From: Archangium sp.
GTDB taxonomy: Bacteria > Myxococcota > Myxococcia > Myxococcales > Myxococcaceae
DNA: 11,296 nucleotides
NCBI GenBank assembly: GCA_016793585.1
Contig: JAEUJR010000995.1
Coordinates: 1 to 11,296, forward strand
Reading direction: 5' to 3'
This document shows positions 3,942-9,478 of the stretch, piece after piece. Every line of letters starts with the position of its first letter. The stretch's first letter is position 1. The position numbers and the translations under genes are program-made. The notes under the pieces are model-generated. The model was not told where the DNA came from and did not search any database. It was given only the letters and a program-made list of their open reading frames with translations.

Positions 3942-4016
3942 CGAAAGGCGTGGTGACAGTTCTTCTCGGTGCCGGTGTTCGAGCAGGCGAACCCGATGCA
4001 CTTCGAGGAGCCCACC

Positions 4017-4718
4017 ATGTCCCGCCTGCTTGCCGCTGCCGTCTCGCTCGCCCTCACCGCGTGTGGAGGCTTTGGCCTCGTCGGAAACGGCAAGCGCGTC
4101 ACCCAGGCGCGTGAGGTGCCGGTGTTCTCGTCGCTCGAGGTCCACTCGGCGATCGAGGTGATCGCGACGAAGGGCGACCGCGCGGTGTCGCTCACCACCG
4201 ACGAGAACATCGCCCAGTACATCGAGACGTTCGTGAGCGACGGGCGGCTCGTGCTGCGGGTTCGGCCCGACATCGACCTCATGGGCTTCACGCCGGTGAA
4301 GATCGAGGTCTCGAACGATCGCTTCGAGGGTATCAGCGCGTCGGGGGCGTCGATGGTGACGGCCCCGGTGACCGCGGCGCCGAAGCTGCCGGTCGAAGCG
4401 TCGGGCGCGAGCACGGTGATCATCTCGGGCGTCGACAGCGCGACGGTGACGGTCGATGCCTCTGGCGCCTCGACGGTGAAGCTCGAGGGCAAGACCGAGG
4501 CGCTGTCGATGAACGTGACGGGATCGTCGACGGTGCGCGCGCGGCCGCTCTCGGCCAACACGGTCACGGTGTCAGCCGACGGCGCGTCGCTGGTCGATCT
4601 CACGGCGGCCACGTCGGCCACGGGGCATGCCTCGGGCGCCTCGACGGTCGAGGTCTCGGGAGCCGGCACCGTGAACGTCACCTCGAGCGGCGCCTCGACG
4701 GTGCGGCGAGCGAATTGA
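4017..4718 (+). CDS. GIN-domain (DUF2807) lipoprotein
   Basis: The predicted 233-residue lipoprotein starts at ATG 4017, six bases after GAGGAG (4005-4010). The first 15 residues form a signal peptide ending in the lipobox L-T-A-C, so Cys16 would be acylated and the protein anchored to a membrane. The mature part begins like the DUF2807 or GIN family (putative autotransporter adhesin head): a short R-x-V-x-x-F-S-x-L-E-V-H segment, then a right-handed beta-helix-like series. S-G-A-S-x-V turns recur from about residue 108 to the end and can be read as stacked strands. Such proteins sit at the cell surface or in the periplasm, and their ligands are mostly unknown. The sigma-factor ORF follows after 4 bases (first possible ATG 4723) or 70 bases (preferred GTG 4789), so co-transcription with the downstream cluster is plausible. 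An upstream in-frame GTG at 3969 would bury the signal peptide and is rejected. Confidence 0.83.
   Translation: MSRLLAAAVSLALTACGGFGLVGNGKRVTQAREVPVFSSLEVHSAIEVIATKGDRAVSLTTDENIAQYIETFVSDGRLVLRVRPDIDLMGFTPVKIEVSNDRFEGISASGASMVTAPVTAAPKLPVEASGASTVIISGVDSATVTVDASGASTVKLEGKTEALSMNVTGSSTVRARPLSANTVTVSADGASLVDLTAATSATGHASGASTVEVSGAGTVNVTSSGASTVRRAN
4338..4703 (+). repeat. Imperfect coding repeats of Ser-Gly-Ala-Ser-x-Val turns
   Basis: The GIN lipoprotein gene contains recurring near-copies of GCSTCSGGCGCSTCGACGGT-like units around 4338, 4398, 4458, 4628 and 4687. They encode A/S-S-G-A-S-T/M-V. The spacing is irregular (about 60 bases for the first three, then longer), as expected for coils of differing length in a beta-helix. 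The repeats reflect protein structure and are not a mobile or non-coding repeat. Confidence 0.65.
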
Positions 4719-4778
4719 GCCGATGAATTCGCTCTCACTCCCGTCGGCTTCTCTTGCTACCGGGGGAGCCGTTGCAAC

Positions 4779-4784
4779 AAGGAG
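4779..4784 (+). promoter_or_regulatory. Ribosome binding site favouring sigma-factor start GTG 4789
   Basis: AAGGAG lies four bases before GTG 4789. The same AAGGAG precedes the anti-sigma gene (5261-5266) and the caspase gene (5982-5987). The upstream ATG at 4723 has no good ribosome site and would add a 22-residue low-complexity N-terminus ahead of the conserved sigma domain. Confidence 0.55.
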
Positions 4785-4788
4785 CGCC

Positions 4789-5277
4789 GTGGCCCTCGAC
4801 GTCGAGCACCTCTACCGAACGCATGGACCGATGGTGCTCCGTCGGTGCCGGCGGCTGCTGCGCGACGAAGGTCAGGCGCTCGACGCGATGCAGGACGTGT
4901 TCGTGCAGGTGCTTCGGCACCAGCGCTCGCTCGATGACGCCGCGCCCTCGTCGCTGTTGTTCCGCCTGGCGACCAACGTGTGCCTCAACAGGCTGCGCAC
5001 GCAGAAACGCAAACCGGAAGATCGCGACGACGAGCTCGTGCTCACCATCGCGCAGGAGCTCGACGAAGCCGCGCGCGCCCAGGCCGCCTCGACGTTGCGA
5101 CGGCTCTTCAGCGTCGAGCCCGAGTCGACCGCCACCATCGCCGTGATGCACCTGCTCGACGGCATGACGCACGACGAGGTGGCCAGAGAAGTGGGGATGT
5201 CCGTGTCAGGGGTGCGCAAGCGCCTTCGAACGTTGAGCGCGAAGTTGTCCACGCTGGATGAAGGAGCGGCGCCATGA
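4789..5277 (+). CDS. ECF-type sigma-70 family RNA polymerase sigma factor
   Basis: This 162-residue protein (184 if read from ATG 4723) has only sigma regions 2 and 4, the layout of extracytoplasmic-function sigma factors. Region 2 runs from about residue 5 to 75, with D-A-M-Q-D-V-F-V-Q-V-L (region 2.2, core polymerase contact) and F-R-L-A-T-N-V-C-L-N-R-L-R (regions 2.3/2.4, -10 recognition). Region 4 near the C-terminus has the helix-turn-helix M-T-H-D-E-V-A-R-E-V-G-M-S-V-S-G-V-R-K-R-L. It would direct polymerase to a dedicated set of promoters. The stop codon overlaps the start of the anti-sigma-like gene (ATGA), so the two are translationally coupled. This is the usual arrangement for a sigma factor held at the membrane by its partner, and autoregulation is likely. 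I could not find a clear ECF promoter in 4719-4788. Confidence 0.88.
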   Translation: MALDVEHLYRTHGPMVLRRCRRLLRDEGQALDAMQDVFVQVLRHQRSLDDAAPSSLLFRLATNVCLNRLRTQKRKPEDRDDELVLTIAQELDEAARAQAASTLRRLFSVEPESTATIAVMHLLDGMTHDEVAREVGMSVSGVRKRLRTLSAKLSTLDEGAAP

Positions 5278-5996
5278 GCCGGCAGGAACCTCCAGACTGG
5301 CTGCTCGAGCGTTACCTCTTGGGCGAGGTCACGCCCGAGCAGCGCGCACGGGTCGATCAGGCGATGGACGCGACGCTGCAGGCCCGGCTCGACGGGCTCA
5401 GGGCCGACTCGGCGAAGACGCTGGCTGCGCACCCTCCGGCACGCGTGGCGGCGCTGGTGAAGGCGCAGGCGCCCGTGCAGCAAAGCCGTCGTTGGCTGCT
5501 TCCGGCGTTCGGGCTGGCGGCCGCCGTGATCCTCGCGATCGTCTTCGTTCCGCGCGGAGACGAGACGATCCTCAAAGGTGAAGGCGCACGGCTCGCGCTG
5601 TTCCGCATGACGGCGCAGGGCCCACAGCCGCTCGGCAACGGCGCTCCGGTTCGTGCGGGTGATCTCGTGCAGGCGCGCTACGGCGTCGACGAAGCCGGCT
5701 TCGTGGTGCTGCTGTCGTTCGACGCGCTGGGGCAGGTGACGGTTCATGCGCCGTTGCACAGCGCCGACACCTCGACCGACGCCGGCTCGTTCTCGACGCA
5801 GCAAGCGTTCGAGCTCGACGCGTCACCCGGCTTCGAGCGGTTCGTCTTGTTCACGTCGAAAAATCCACTGTCGATCGACGCGCTCTCGGAGTTGGCCCGG
5901 CAGGCCGCGCGGAGCAGTGACGCCCAACATGCGGCGCTCGCGGTCGACCCCTCCACCCACCAGCGGTCGATCGTTCTCGTGAAGGAGCTTCGATGA
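5274..5996 (+). CDS. Anti-sigma-like membrane protein with DUF4384-type domain
   Basis: This 240-residue protein has three parts. Residues about 8-45 contain W-L-L-E-R-Y-L-L-G-E-V-T-P-E-Q-R-A-R-V, the helical signature typical of the cytoplasmic end of anti-sigma factors, but without the zinc-binding His and Cys of zf-HC2 proteins. Residues 74-92 form one transmembrane helix. Residues about 105-200 (from A-R-L-A-L-F through R-A-G-D-L-V-Q-A-R-Y, V-V-L-L-S-F-D, V-T-V-H-A-P to F-V-L-F-T-S) resemble DUF4384, a domain often linked to caspase-like or kinase proteins. This part would lie outside the cytoplasmic membrane and could act as the sensor. AAGGAG is seven bases before the start, and the gene overlaps both neighbours by 4 bp. 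The inferred role is to sequester the upstream sigma factor until a signal on the envelope side releases it. The DUF4384 call rests on pattern resemblance. Confidence 0.75.
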   Translation: MSRQEPPDWLLERYLLGEVTPEQRARVDQAMDATLQARLDGLRADSAKTLAAHPPARVAALVKAQAPVQQSRRWLLPAFGLAAAVILAIVFVPRGDETILKGEGARLALFRMTAQGPQPLGNGAPVRAGDLVQARYGVDEAGFVVLLSFDALGQVTVHAPLHSADTSTDAGSFSTQQAFELDASPGFERFVLFTSKNPLSIDALSELARQAARSSDAQHAALAVDPSTHQRSIVLVKELR

Positions 5997-8167
5997 TTCT
6001 CTCAGCGCTGCTGATCGCCCAGTTGGTGACGGGTCAGTCGGAGCCCGCGGTTCGCCGCTTCGCGCTCGTCGTGGGCGCGAACGATGGAGGCAAGGAGCGG
6101 GTGACGCTCCGCTACGCGGCGAGTGACGCGAAGTCGGTCGCCACGGTGTTGGCGCAGCTGGGCGGCGTGGCCCCGCGCGATCTCATGGCCATCGAAGAGC
6201 CGAAGCCGGCCGACATCGGGCGTGCCATCGACGAGCTTTCGAGAAGGCTGACCGCAGCTCGAGACTCGGCGGGCCGGCTCGAGGTGATCTTCTATTACTC
6301 GGGCCACTCCGACGAGAACGGGCTGTTGCTGGGGCAGGAGCGCTACCCCTACGACGAGCTGCGCCGTCGGCTCGATCAGCTCCCCGCAGAAGTGCGCCTC
6401 GCGATCGTCGACGCGTGCGCTTCGGGAGCCCTCACCCGTTCGAAGGGCGGCGTGTCGCGGCCTCCATTCCTGGTCGACGCGTCGAACCAGCTCAAGGGCC
6501 ATGCGTTCTTGACGTCAGCCTCGATCGACGAAGCCGCGCAGGAGTCGGAGCGGCTCAAGGCCAGCGTCTTCACGCACGCGCTCGTCTCGGGGCTTCGTGG
6601 CGCTGCCGATACCAGCCGCGATGGCCGCGTCACGCTCGCGGAGGCGTATCAGTTCGCGTTCAACGAGACGCTCGCGCGCACCGCGTCGACCCGCAGCGGC
6701 CCCCAACGGCCGGCCTTCGACATTCAGCTCGTCGGCACGGGAGAGATGGTGCTGACCGACGTGCGCGTCGCGACGTCTCAGCTCGAGCTCGACCCTGGCC
6801 TGAGCGGGCGCGTGTTCGTGCTCAACGCGACGGGCGGCCTGGTGGTCGAAGTGGCGAAGAGCGCGGGCGCCCCGCTGCAGCTCGGCGTCGAGCCCGGCAG
6901 CTATCGGGTGCTGGTCGACGACGGGAAGGGTGGGCTCGGGCAGACGACGCTCGCGCTGGCCGAGAAGCAGACCGCGACGGTGACGTCAGCGCAGCTGGTG
7001 CCCACGGCAAAGGAGGCGCTGGTGGCGCGTGGTGACGAGCCGCGCCCATACCTTCCCGTCGACGTCGCGTTCGCGTACCCGCTGAGCCTCGGCGGTGCGC
7101 TGATGGGGCCTCCGAAGACGAACTTCAGCCTCGGCGTCTTGTGGGCCCGTGAAGGGGAGGTGGCTGGGGCAGCGCTGAGCAGTCTGGGCACGTGGGTCGA
7201 TGGGCCGACTCGCGGCGTGGCAGTGGGCGGCGTGGCCTACCGCACGGGCGGGCTCGACGGCGTGGGGGCAGCCGGTGTGGCGCTGATCTCGACCGACGAC
7301 GTGCGCGGCGTGCTGGTCGCTCCCGCTACGATCGTCGCGGGCTCGATGAAGGGCGTGCAGGCAGGTGCTTTTCACCTCGTCAGCAACGGGGCCGTAGGCG
7401 GGCAGGTGAGCGCCGTGAACGTCATCGCAGGCGGGCTGCTCGGCGTTCAGGTGGGCGCGGTGAACGTCGTGACGGGCAACACCACCGGGCTCCAGGCGGG
7501 CGCCGTCAACCTGACGACGGCCGAGCTCCGCGGCTTCCAGGGCTCTGCGCTCAACGTCGCGTCAGGCGTCGTCACCGGAGCGCAGGTCGGGGTGCTGAAC
7601 ATCGGCGGTGACGTCACGGGCGCCCAGGTTGGCGTGCTGAACATCGCCTCGACGGTGAAGGGCACTCAGATCGGCGTGCTGAACATCGCCAGGGAGTCAG
7701 ACGCGCCCATCGGCATTCTCAACGTCATCACGAAGGGACAGTTCCGCGCGGCGGTGTGGGCGAACGAGACCCAGGTGGTGAACCTCGCGGTGAAGCTCGG
7801 CAGCCGAAACGTGTACAGCTACGGCACCGTCGGGCTGAACCCGCGCGATGGAGCCCGGCTCTTCGCCGGCCTCGGGCTCGGCCTTCACCTCGACTTCGGC
7901 AGGTTCTACGGCCAGCTCGAGGCAGACACGGGAACGCTCATGTGGCTGTCGACGATCACCCGCCCGGCCGATGTGCTCGCCGTGAACGAGCGCCTGACCG
8001 TGGGCTACCAGTTCGCTGACGCCTTCTCGGTGTTCGCCGGCCCGTCGTTCACGCAGCTGGTCTCGTTCACCCGCTCGGACCTCACGGCGCTGTCTCCGTG
8101 GGGCATCGACCCGCGGCAGGGCGTTCGGCTCGTTCCGGGAATCGTGATCGGCGCGCAGCTTTTCTGA
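5993..8167 (+). CDS. Exported caspase-family (C14-like) protein with surface-type repeats and barrel-like C-terminus
   Basis: This 724-residue mosaic protein begins with a short signal peptide (about residues 1-15). A caspase-fold domain spans roughly 22-250. It starts F-A-L-V-V-G-A-N-D, has catalytic His105 in Y-Y-S-G-H-S-D-E and Cys142 in V-D-A-C-A-S-G, and ends with an EF-hand-like D-T-S-R-D-G-R-V-T-L-A-E-A (206-218), a segment common in bacterial caspase-like proteins. Residues 255-335 are a beta-rich linker resembling PEGA-type domains. Residues 408-582 hold about twelve 15-residue repeats (G-x-Q-x-G-x-V/L-N-V/I), like LA_2272-type surface repeats. The rest is made of alternating strands ending in A-Q-L-F, as in outer-membrane barrels. 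The His/Cys dyad is intact, so a cysteine protease is plausible; its substrate is unknown. The overlap with the anti-sigma-like gene (ATGA) ties it to that regulator. Confidence 0.85.
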   Translation: MILSALLIAQLVTGQSEPAVRRFALVVGANDGGKERVTLRYAASDAKSVATVLAQLGGVAPRDLMAIEEPKPADIGRAIDELSRRLTAARDSAGRLEVIFYYSGHSDENGLLLGQERYPYDELRRRLDQLPAEVRLAIVDACASGALTRSKGGVSRPPFLVDASNQLKGHAFLTSASIDEAAQESERLKASVFTHALVSGLRGAADTSRDGRVTLAEAYQFAFNETLARTASTRSGPQRPAFDIQLVGTGEMVLTDVRVATSQLELDPGLSGRVFVLNATGGLVVEVAKSAGAPLQLGVEPGSYRVLVDDGKGGLGQTTLALAEKQTATVTSAQLVPTAKEALVARGDEPRPYLPVDVAFAYPLSLGGALMGPPKTNFSLGVLWAREGEVAGAALSSLGTWVDGPTRGVAVGGVAYRTGGLDGVGAAGVALISTDDVRGVLVAPATIVAGSMKGVQAGAFHLVSNGAVGGQVSAVNVIAGGLLGVQVGAVNVVTGNTTGLQAGAVNLTTAELRGFQGSALNVASGVVTGAQVGVLNIGGDVTGAQVGVLNIASTVKGTQIGVLNIARESDAPIGILNVITKGQFRAAVWANETQVVNLAVKLGSRNVYSYGTVGLNPRDGARLFAGLGLGLHLDFGRFYGQLEADTGTLMWLSTITRPADVLAVNERLTVGYQFADAFSVFAGPSFTQLVSFTRSDLTALSPWGIDPRQGVRLVPGIVIGAQLF
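7214..7738 (+). repeat. Tandem coding repeats, about 12 units of 15 residues
   Basis: In the caspase-family gene, units start at residues 408, 423, 439, 454, 469, 484, 499, 514, 529, 543, 557 and about 570. The period is 15 residues, shortening to 13-14 at the end. The best units read G-x-Q-V-G-V-L-N-I or G-V-Q-V-G-A-V-N-V. The first three (408-453) are degenerate, lacking the Gln and Asn. The regular period and Gly/Asn positions suggest a beta-solenoid or stacked-hairpin structure. The last well-formed units are the most alike, as expected if the array grew by recent duplication there. Confidence 0.8.
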
Positions 8168-8179
8168 GATGGTCGCGGC

Positions 8180-9478
8180 ATGGCCTTCGACTGGAAGCGC
8201 TTCGAGCTCGAGCTCTTCGAGGAGCTGCGCGCGGCGCTGAAACGGTTCGCGAAGCACCACCGCCACGAGCACTTCTACGCAGTCGCGCTCTTTGGCGTGT
8301 ACCGCGAGCTCGACGGGCTGCTGTCGTTGCCGTCGCTGGCAGCGAGCAGTACGGAAGAGGGCCCTGACGCCGAGACGCCCACGAGCTTCTGGAGCGCCCG
8401 CTTCAACCCCGCCGACTGGCCGCACGAGCTCGAGCTGAACCACAAGACGGCGCGGCGGCTCGAGCAGGAGCTGACCGCCGAGGCGACTCGCGGCACCGTC
8501 GCGCAGTGGCGGTCGGTCGAGCAGCGGTACTTCAAGGTGCTCGTCCGAATCGCGGGCGCGCTGCGCGCCGATGCGCTCGAGCTCCTCGCTTGCACCGGCG
8601 ACTTCGTCTGCTTCTGGCACGACGAAGAGGGTGGCCCTGAGCTCGCGCGCGAGACGATCGACGACACGCTCGCGCGCCGGCTCTTCAGCAGAGAGGCCGC
8701 TCAGAAGCGGGCGCGCCAGAAGCTCGCCAAGCAGCAACCGAGCGAGCGGGCGGCCTTTCTGGTGACGCGCTTCGGTCAATTCGAGGGCATCACGAGCGAA
8801 CAGGCGCAACGCGAGCTGCTCGCCATGGGTGAAGCGGCACACGACGCGCTGGTTGGTGCCCTCGCCGACAAGAAGAACGGGTGGACCGCGGCGAAGGTGC
8901 TCGGGCAGATCGGCGTCGCCAGCCCGAAGGTGATCGCGGCGCTTCGCAGACGGGCCGACGAGCTCTGGTTTGCGATGGCGTTGGGCATGCTCGGCGACGT
9001 CGAGTGGCTCTCGAAGCAGAGGCCCGCCACCGCCGTGAATGGGCTCACGGCGCGGCTCAAGGCGATCACCGCTGGAGGAGCGCCTCGACCCCTCGACTAC
9101 CGACCGCTCGAGGCCTGGCTCAGCGAGAACGCGAAAGGGCGTTCACTCGTCGAGCACGAGCTCGCTCCCGGTCGAAGCTTCGTCGACCTTCGGAAGAGCG
9201 ACGTGAACGAAGCCCTGCGCGCACTCTCGAGTCCGTTCGCCGTCGTGCGCTGGCACGCCGCCTCGGTGCTCGGTGATCGTGAACTCGGCGCAGCGGCAGG
9301 TGCGAAGGCGCTCCCGGCCCTGGCAGGCGTGCTCCAGGACCAACACGCGCTGGTTCGCCGGCTCGCGGTGTTGTCTCTCTCCCGATGGAAGACCGCGTCG
9401 AAGCCGTACCACGCGGCGATTCGGGCGATGAAGAACGACGCTGACCCGGTCGTGCGCGACGTCGCGGCGACGATCTAG
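8180..9478 (+). CDS. DUF4303-like protein with C-terminal HEAT repeats
   Basis: This 432-residue soluble protein has no signal peptide. The N-terminal part (about 1-165) resembles DUF4303: a first amphipathic helix, then H-F-Y-A-V-A-L-F-G-V-Y, a loop, and F-N-P-A-D-W-P-H-E-L-E. A charged helical linker follows (around 170-190, R-A-R-Q-K-L-A-K-Q-Q). Residues about 200-432 contain HEAT-like helical pairs, clearest in D-A-L-V-G-A-L-A-D-K-K-N-G-W-T-A-A-K-V-L and in the last 90 residues (V-V-R-W-H-A-A-S-V-L-G-D, L-V-R-R-L-A-V-L-S-L-S). HEAT arrays bind partner proteins. The start is 12 bases after the caspase gene's stop, so it may be the last gene of that operon. No good ribosome site is visible; GAGATGG at 8166-8172 is the nearest purine-rich stretch. 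The DUF4303 assignment is by resemblance and the biological role is unknown. Confidence 0.75.
   Translation: MAFDWKRFELELFEELRAALKRFAKHHRHEHFYAVALFGVYRELDGLLSLPSLAASSTEEGPDAETPTSFWSARFNPADWPHELELNHKTARRLEQELTAEATRGTVAQWRSVEQRYFKVLVRIAGALRADALELLACTGDFVCFWHDEEGGPELARETIDDTLARRLFSREAAQKRARQKLAKQQPSERAAFLVTRFGQFEGITSEQAQRELLAMGEAAHDALVGALADKKNGWTAAKVLGQIGVASPKVIAALRRRADELWFAMALGMLGDVEWLSKQRPATAVNGLTARLKAITAGGAPRPLDYRPLEAWLSENAKGRSLVEHELAPGRSFVDLRKSDVNEALRALSSPFAVVRWHAASVLGDRELGAAAGAKALPALAGVLQDQHALVRRLAVLSLSRWKTASKPYHAAIRAMKNDADPVVRDVAATI

Follow-up and report, generated by a model that had tools for sequence, protein, structure and literature searches.

A Lys-Gly motif shared by a membrane anti-sigma factor and a neighbouring exported caspase suggests a proteolytic sigma-factor switch in Archangium

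In the RseA/DegS/RseP system, a membrane-bound anti-sigma factor is cut on its outer side first and the sigma factor is freed later. We analysed an 11,296-nucleotide stretch of Archangium sp. DNA (hereafter the window; GenBank assembly GCA_016793585.1, contig JAEUJR010000995.1) in which the genes for an extracytoplasmic function (ECF) sigma factor, a putative membrane anti-sigma factor and an exported caspase overlap. The switch that we propose for this unit resembles the RseA system in that an outside cut would precede sigma release. It differs in that the first protease would be a caspase and that the outer domain of the anti-sigma factor is DUF4384-like.

Sigma factors and caspase-fold proteases have been associated before. 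An operon of a sigma-70 factor and a metacaspase has been in print since 2012 (Asplund-Samuelsson et al., PMC3501461), where it is described for four of the five metacaspases of M. xanthus DK1622 and also for Anaeromyxobacter, Haliangium, Sorangium, Ralstonia and Fibrobacter. These operons contain the same sigma/caspase gene pair as the window. The main text of that paper never uses the term anti-sigma, and the passages available give no cleavage site, barrel or mechanism. Relative to the 2012 operon, the anti-sigma partner and the Lys-Gly match described below are new here; a limited search of main texts did not find the anti-sigma Lys-Gly site in print. In the type III-E Craspase system (TPR-CHAT, Csx30, RpoE), Craspase cleaves Csx30, which binds RpoE (PMC9729208), so that there, too, a caspase-fold protease cuts a sigma-bound protein. 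By contrast, the Craspase protease is a CHAT protein within an RNA-guided CRISPR complex and cuts after Leu407, whereas the window encodes an exported C14 protease, a membrane-spanning anti-sigma factor and a predicted P1 Lys. Finally, the proteases proposed as controllers of ECF54 sigma factors include CHAT proteases (PMC8999054), again a caspase-like protease proposed to act on an ECF sigma factor.

For the window, we lean slightly towards the reading that the caspase cuts the anti-sigma factor at Lys101-Gly102 and thereby frees the sigma factor, rather than being merely the sigma factor's output. The caspase is preferred as the release protease because the Lys-Gly pair seems dispensable for the fold, is kept together with the sigma-binding domain and matches the loop motif of the neighbouring Lys/Arg-type protease. 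The features on which this reading draws are the following.

4789..5277, + strand: ECF-type sigma-70 factor, regions 2 and 4 only (TIGR02937, sigma70-ECF, 62.7 bits against a cut-off of 42.9; Pfam Sigma70_r2, 52.5 bits, and r4_2, 27.2 bits, both above cut-off)
5274..5996, + strand: putative single-pass anti-sigma factor with a DUF4384-like outer domain (weak family matches, structure model)
5574..5579, + strand: codons of Lys101-Gly102, the proposed cleavage site (conservation in 166 anti-sigma factors; predicted local distance difference test score, pLDDT, of the linker)
5993..8167, + strand: exported caspase of 724 residues with an all-beta C-terminus (Peptidase_C14, PF00656, 48.5 bits against a cut-off of 21.4; LA_2272 surface repeats, 41.2 bits against 25; structure model)
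5993..6037, + strand: short probable signal peptide (alignment with homologues; helix 2-12 in the model)
6050..6772, + strand: caspase domain, residues 20-260 (His105 at 6305-6307, Cys142 at 6416-6418; acidic S1 residues Asp45 and Asp140)
6434..6451, + strand: putative activation-loop motif T148-R-S-K151-G152-G153 (conservation in 88 homologues; pLDDT)
7049..8161, + strand: beta-rich C-terminus, residues 353-723, with LA_2272-type repeats and Phe as the final residue (model, Foldseek)

The open reading frames (ORFs) of the unit, all on the + strand, span 4723-5277 (with an in-frame GTG at 4789), 5274-5996 and 5993-8167. ATGA is present at both gene junctions, 5274-5277 and 5993-5996, so both 4-bp overlaps are real, and AAGGAG precedes each of the three starts (4779-4784, 5261-5266 and 5982-5987). 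The overlaps and ribosome sites claimed in a first-pass annotation of this DNA were thus confirmed, and family searches and structure models upheld its calls of a sigma factor, an anti-sigma-like membrane protein and an exported caspase. GTG 4789 is favoured over ATG 4723 as the sigma start because, as judged by eye, loci L001, L002 and L004 are conserved from the GTG onward. The product of this gene is predicted to direct ECF-type transcription.

The second gene matched known families below their thresholds: DUF4384 (PF14326) at 19.7 bits, under the gathering cut-off of 27, zf-HC2 at 13.3 bits, under a cut-off of 22.2, and the anti-sigmaE model PRK13920 at an E-value of 4e-4, under cut-off. 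Its relatives P0127 and P0196 do carry a Pfam DUF4384 call. According to the structure model (mean pLDDT of 88.4; helices 8-65 and 80-90), the protein comprises N-terminal helices of the sigma-binding type, a membrane helix, a linker and a DUF4384-like outer domain with an Ig fold. By eye, the HxxxCxxC zinc motif of the ZAS subgroup was absent from this protein and its alignment, and present in some distant paralogues, such as that of L135. As is characteristic of membrane anti-sigma genes, the gene adjoins its own ECF gene: the two overlap in the window, and both are present in 52 of 72 relatives (see below). Its product is predicted to bind and inhibit the sigma factor. At least 90 of 117 genomes drawn from Myxococcota have a match to this anti-sigma family.

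Beyond the fold core, the striking feature of the first alignment was a Lys-Gly pair just outside the membrane. K101 and G102 are each 98% conserved in 166 aligned anti-sigma factors, ranking second and third of all columns after E188. Six DUF4384 matches judged not to be anti-sigma factors were left out of the 166: the scanned stretch lacks [KR]G in L162, L166 and L183 and has Arg-Gly elsewhere in L161 and L163, and L165 is a mis-framed ORF. In a small sample, DUF4384 proteins that are not anti-sigma factors had no Lys-Gly before the domain. One anti-sigma set was deduplicated by the last 120 residues, which reduced 110 loci to 99 rows. In the model, Lys101-Gly102 falls between a low-confidence linker (residues 91-100, pLDDT below 50) and the first strand, at residue 106; the distance from the membrane helix to the pair varies among anti-sigma factors. 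Among 279 distinct proteins, [KR]G occurs in 262 of the 263 with a sigma-binding domain, and the 16 rows with no detected sigma-binding domain are split between eight with and eight without it. Five distinct, apparently full-length proteins that lack the domain (P0209-P0213) all lack [KR]G; L033 and L031 repeat two of these, and most of the other domain-less rows are partial sequences. The pair was seen by eye in all 40 distant paralogues (E-values of 1e-25 to 1e-41), some of which have zinc-type sigma-binding domains; these loci were hand-picked from the low-scoring part among the matches listed, and 36 of them have a caspase match, 35 on the same strand. At caspase-adjacent loci of the second set, Lys-Gly was present in 65 of 65, as well as in L178, which was shown to be adjacent.

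Caspases are processed in the loop that follows the catalytic Cys. In the window caspase and its homologues this loop reads [T/A]RxKGG. Lys-Gly was found in all 135 parsed loops, 131 of them at the same offset; these counts derive from 155 caspase loci, some places having been fetched twice (for example, L153 and L169). Nineteen of the 20 unparsed loops show Lys-Gly by eye. In the other, L189, Arg-Gly occupies the same loop position and also occurs in the anti-sigma factor. K151 lies nine residues past the catalytic Cys, and K151, G152 and G153 are invariant in 88 homologues. The caspase model is of high overall confidence (mean pLDDT of 91.2), and its residues 153-164, beside the motif, score below 50. 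The resemblance extends upstream of the pair: in 122 locus pairs, Arg occupies P3 in 103 caspases and 95 anti-sigma factors and Thr occupies P4 in 58 and 51, respectively, the pairs having been selected for Lys-Gly in both proteins and being informative for P4, P3 and P2 only. In 30 further caspase loci, the loop Lys-Gly occurs in 13 with an adjoining anti-sigma gene and in L206, which has none; the rest comprise seven members of a second family, five without Lys-Gly at the offset and four unparsed loops (L199-L202). At the same offset, none of five unlinked Myxococcota caspases has Lys-Gly.

The third gene encodes a C14 caspase, as judged from a family model over cut-off, a His-Cys dyad and the caspase fold. 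It has the two acidic S1 residues of Arg/Lys-type orthocaspases: Asp45 and Asp140 are invariant in the 88 homologues and correspond in alignment to the Asp residues of GCxxDA and DSC in solved metacaspases. Such S1 Asp residues accommodate basic residues (PMC6426788), and the window caspase is predicted to cleave after Arg or Lys. Its N-terminus is probably a signal peptide, the N-termini of homologues being hydrophobic as well. An envelope rather than a cytoplasmic location, as the annotation had suggested, is consistent with this hydrophobic N-terminus and with the barrel-like C-terminus. The LA_2272-type repeats (approximately 14-15 residues each; window 7280-7792) differ in number between homologues, and the barrel or solenoid may accordingly differ in size.

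A caspase profile scan of the genome collection returned 484 relatives, the best 80 of which were examined; the gene-order counts cover the 72 of these with more than 1500 bp of upstream sequence. An anti-sigma gene lies within 500 bp upstream on the same strand in 63 of the 72, and both the anti-sigma and sigma genes are present in 52, in 40 of which the last four bases of the sigma gene are ATGA or GTGA. Eleven loci have the anti-sigma gene only. Neither gene is on the caspase strand in nine: seven belonging to one paralogue group (Myxococcus, Pyxidicoccus, Hyalangium and a record titled Comamonas), L070, where both genes are on the opposite strand, and L080 (Aminicenantes), where the caspase has neither. 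The linkage of sigma, anti-sigma and caspase genes exceeds chance. By record title, the best 80 caspase relatives include members of Myxococcota, Spirochaetes, Fibrobacteres, Bdellovibrionales and Fermentibacteria. The tight joint unit of the first-pass annotation therefore stands: the three-gene order is conserved across Myxococcota and reaches beyond the phylum. As to the Comamonas record (sp. KCTC 72670), its loci L043 and L051 carry Myxococcus-like versions of the unit's genes, and the record may therefore be mislabelled.

Scattering of the genes in relatives, which the annotation had named as evidence against its unit, does occur in Myxococcus, where the sigma gene lies elsewhere; the same parts are present there in a different arrangement. 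In three Myxococcus genomes, the sigma gene is at a separate locus and is 88% identical to the Corallococcus one. It is followed by a second anti-sigma gene and then by a gene for a caspase-less remnant of 195-203 residues, which corresponds to the caspase gene without the caspase domain, that is, a signal peptide and the barrel end (L088:5157-5768, L089:4436-5023). Among 17 caspase-less sigma loci of the Myxococcus/Archangium type, 16 retain the remnant behind the sigma/anti-sigma pair; an Archangium pair is without it, and no caspase was found there within the fetched 11 kb. The Myxococcus caspase keeps an adjoining anti-sigma homologue but no local sigma gene. At L031 and L033, a DUF4384-like membrane protein stands beside the caspase without a sigma-binding domain, a sigma gene or Lys-Gly. 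Two other arrangements were observed. At L145:3757-6265, a sigma/anti-sigma pair is followed by two genes, which from their motif we take to be matrixin-type metalloproteases, and by no caspase; the anti-sigma factor retains Lys-Gly. At L191:5032-7436 in M. xanthus AM003, the operon seems to have decayed: the anti-sigma factor has Lys-Ser, the sigma match is residual and no caspase was found.

A second set of sigma-linked caspases is lipoprotein-like and, as a rule, has no Lys-Gly in the loop after the Cys. Here Lys-Gly follows the export signal, within the N-terminal linker, in 53 of 55 aligned proteins, rows that include many close relatives (30 listed loci at 76-100% identity) and are not independent; L272 is one column off and L270 has Lys-Ser. 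Of the 47 anti-sigma factors found for this family, 46 carry Lys-Gly behind the membrane helix, and eight more loci had no anti-sigma gene within the fetched flank. GEKGGL stands in the caspase and GEKGRL in the anti-sigma factor of L214, a pair from M. xanthus.

On the reading that we prefer, the anti-sigma factor would grip the sigma factor through its cytoplasmic helices and hold its DUF4384-like domain beyond the inner membrane. The C-terminus of the caspase would tether it, most likely to the outer membrane, and its N-terminal protease domain would lie in the periplasm. Once activated, perhaps by autocleavage in the TRSKGG loop, the caspase would cut after Lys101 of the juxtamembrane Lys-Gly, and the outer domain would be shed. 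Further proteolysis in the membrane and cytoplasm, of the RseA type, would then release the sigma factor, which may in turn raise transcription of the operon. We infer this topology, the cleavage, the autocleavage, sigma release and autoregulation from sequence comparison. Autoregulation could make the caspase both trigger and output of the sigma factor. The wiring first drawn for this unit, with the caspase as the output of the sigma factor, lacked support in that form; the comparative evidence points at least equally to a caspase upstream of the sigma factor. We also put forward, tentatively and as a shade short of probable, that this is a widespread envelope architecture, found at least in Myxococcota, Spirochaetes, Fibrobacteres and Bdellovibrionales: periplasmic caspase activation would be turned into ECF sigma activity through an anti-sigma Lys-Gly that copies the protease's own processing site, in two caspase families that place Lys-Gly differently in the protease.

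A number of observations weigh against caspase cleavage of the anti-sigma factor. Caspase paralogues without sigma and anti-sigma genes (L044 and six others, and L080) keep the loop Lys-Gly, which therefore does not exist for the anti-sigma factor alone. The unlinked caspases of L195, L196 and L198 carry Arg-Gly or Lys-Gly at a later point in the loop; a basic-Gly loop may thus be common to such caspases, weakening the motif match as evidence. Processing at basic-Gly may predate the anti-sigma link, in which case the shared site would mean that the anti-sigma factor fits an existing specificity. In the anti-sigma family, P0244 and the second L037 copy have [KR]G with no detected sigma-binding domain, P0196, L173, L180 and L208 have a sigma-type anti-sigma factor lacking [KR]G, and the five domain-less proteins that lack it may form one clade and hence record one event. 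L270, with Lys-Ser in the caspase and Lys-Gly in the anti-sigma factor, is contrary to strict co-change. Finally, the Foldseek matches of the caspase C-terminus to OprF, NspA and OmpW barrels are weak (E-values of 5e-3 to 2e-2), and the repeats also resemble designed repeat proteins.

Two further points count against cleavage and speak for a rival scheme, in which the DUF4384-like domain receives an envelope signal, the sigma factor is freed by a conformational change or by a different protease, the caspase is regulon output only and Lys-Gly is the structural start of the outer domain. We consider this scheme rather unlikely, although gene order and overlaps agree with it. Lys-Gly sits at the border of the folded domain, and its place is roughly constant with respect to the beta domain rather than the membrane, so a structural role is conceivable. 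Moreover, anti-sigma factors without an adjoining caspase keep Lys-Gly in 24 of 26 cases (L178 having been moved out of this group). The two exceptions are L173, where a sigma gene but no caspase was found within 10 kb of sequence, and the M. xanthus AM003 locus L180, with a residual sigma match and no caspase found. Seventeen of the 26 are Myxococcus/Archangium-type sigma loci, 16 of them with the barrel-only remnant, and a caspase elsewhere was seen in only some of these genomes: by coordinates in G001, G002 and G056, and in G001-G004 at L052, L045, L011 and L008. Since Lys-Gly is kept in so many non-adjacent proteins, the tie between caspase loss and motif loss is suggestive, not strong. 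Against the output-only scheme, the DUF4384-like fold manages without Lys-Gly in the five domain-less proteins, a matching [T]RxKG stands in the caspase loop, and the sole Arg-Gly pair, that of L189, is altered in both proteins.

It is also conceivable, but in our view improbable, that the outer domain serves the caspase as a partner or pseudo-substrate inhibitor, with Lys-Gly docked in the active site until a signal arrives and the sigma factor only reporting this state. Such a role would suit L031 and L033, whose outer domain stays beside the caspase though the sigma gene and sigma-binding domain are gone, as well as the anti-sigma homologue of Myxococcus, which has kept its place next to the caspase although no sigma gene is nearby; yet L031 and L033 have lost Lys-Gly and keep the caspase, which is unexpected of an inhibitory site. 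Least probable is a cell-death or defence module in which the sigma factor switches on an envelope executioner caspase. A tie to developmental autolysis is suggested, in a general way, for the M. xanthus metacaspase operons in the discussion of PMC3501461. However, neither the caspase nor the anti-sigma factor had a PADLOC match at E-values up to 1. The unit also occurs in Spirochaetes and Fibrobacter, which are not known to form fruiting bodies.

Around the unit, the window contains a gene for the gliding protein CglE at 1652-2329 (NCBIfam NF033755, 160.2 bits), as befits a myxobacterium-like genome. Those close relatives of the caspase that bear a name are Myxococcales, Myxococcaceae and Archangiaceae MAGs. 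A DUF2807 (head GIN) gene at 3969-4718 ends 4 bp before ATG 4723; DUF2807 matches also lie directly upstream in L001, L002, L003, L004 and L006, so this gene may belong to the operon in the window's clade. A DUF4303-HEAT gene at 8180-9478 begins 12 bp past the caspase stop and, among the loci compared, was matched only in L004.

One relative may connect the family to a described developmental operon. The genes of L052:1-7172, whose kinds we assigned ourselves, run RR-GGDEF, NtrC-like, epimerase-GNAT, anti-sigma homologue and caspase. Their order, together with the NCBI name 'ActD-like' for Corallococcus relatives, suggests a match to the M. xanthus act operon. On that assignment, ActD looks like an anti-sigma homologue with no sigma gene nearby, a difference from the window, and the next gene would be a caspase. 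The operon is described as actABCD in PMC4320627 and as five co-transcribed genes in PMC3824092, and the findings on it concern the level and timing of the C-signal.

It has long been asked what caspases do in bacteria when they are not part of a defence system. If the proposed switch is correct, many Myxococcota caspases would be signalling proteases with a known substrate and cut site, and their function would be testable through one mutant residue. The caspase would join the proteases that start sigma-factor release, and ActD and the gene that follows it would gain a molecular role in the act operon, which tunes C-signal production in M. xanthus.

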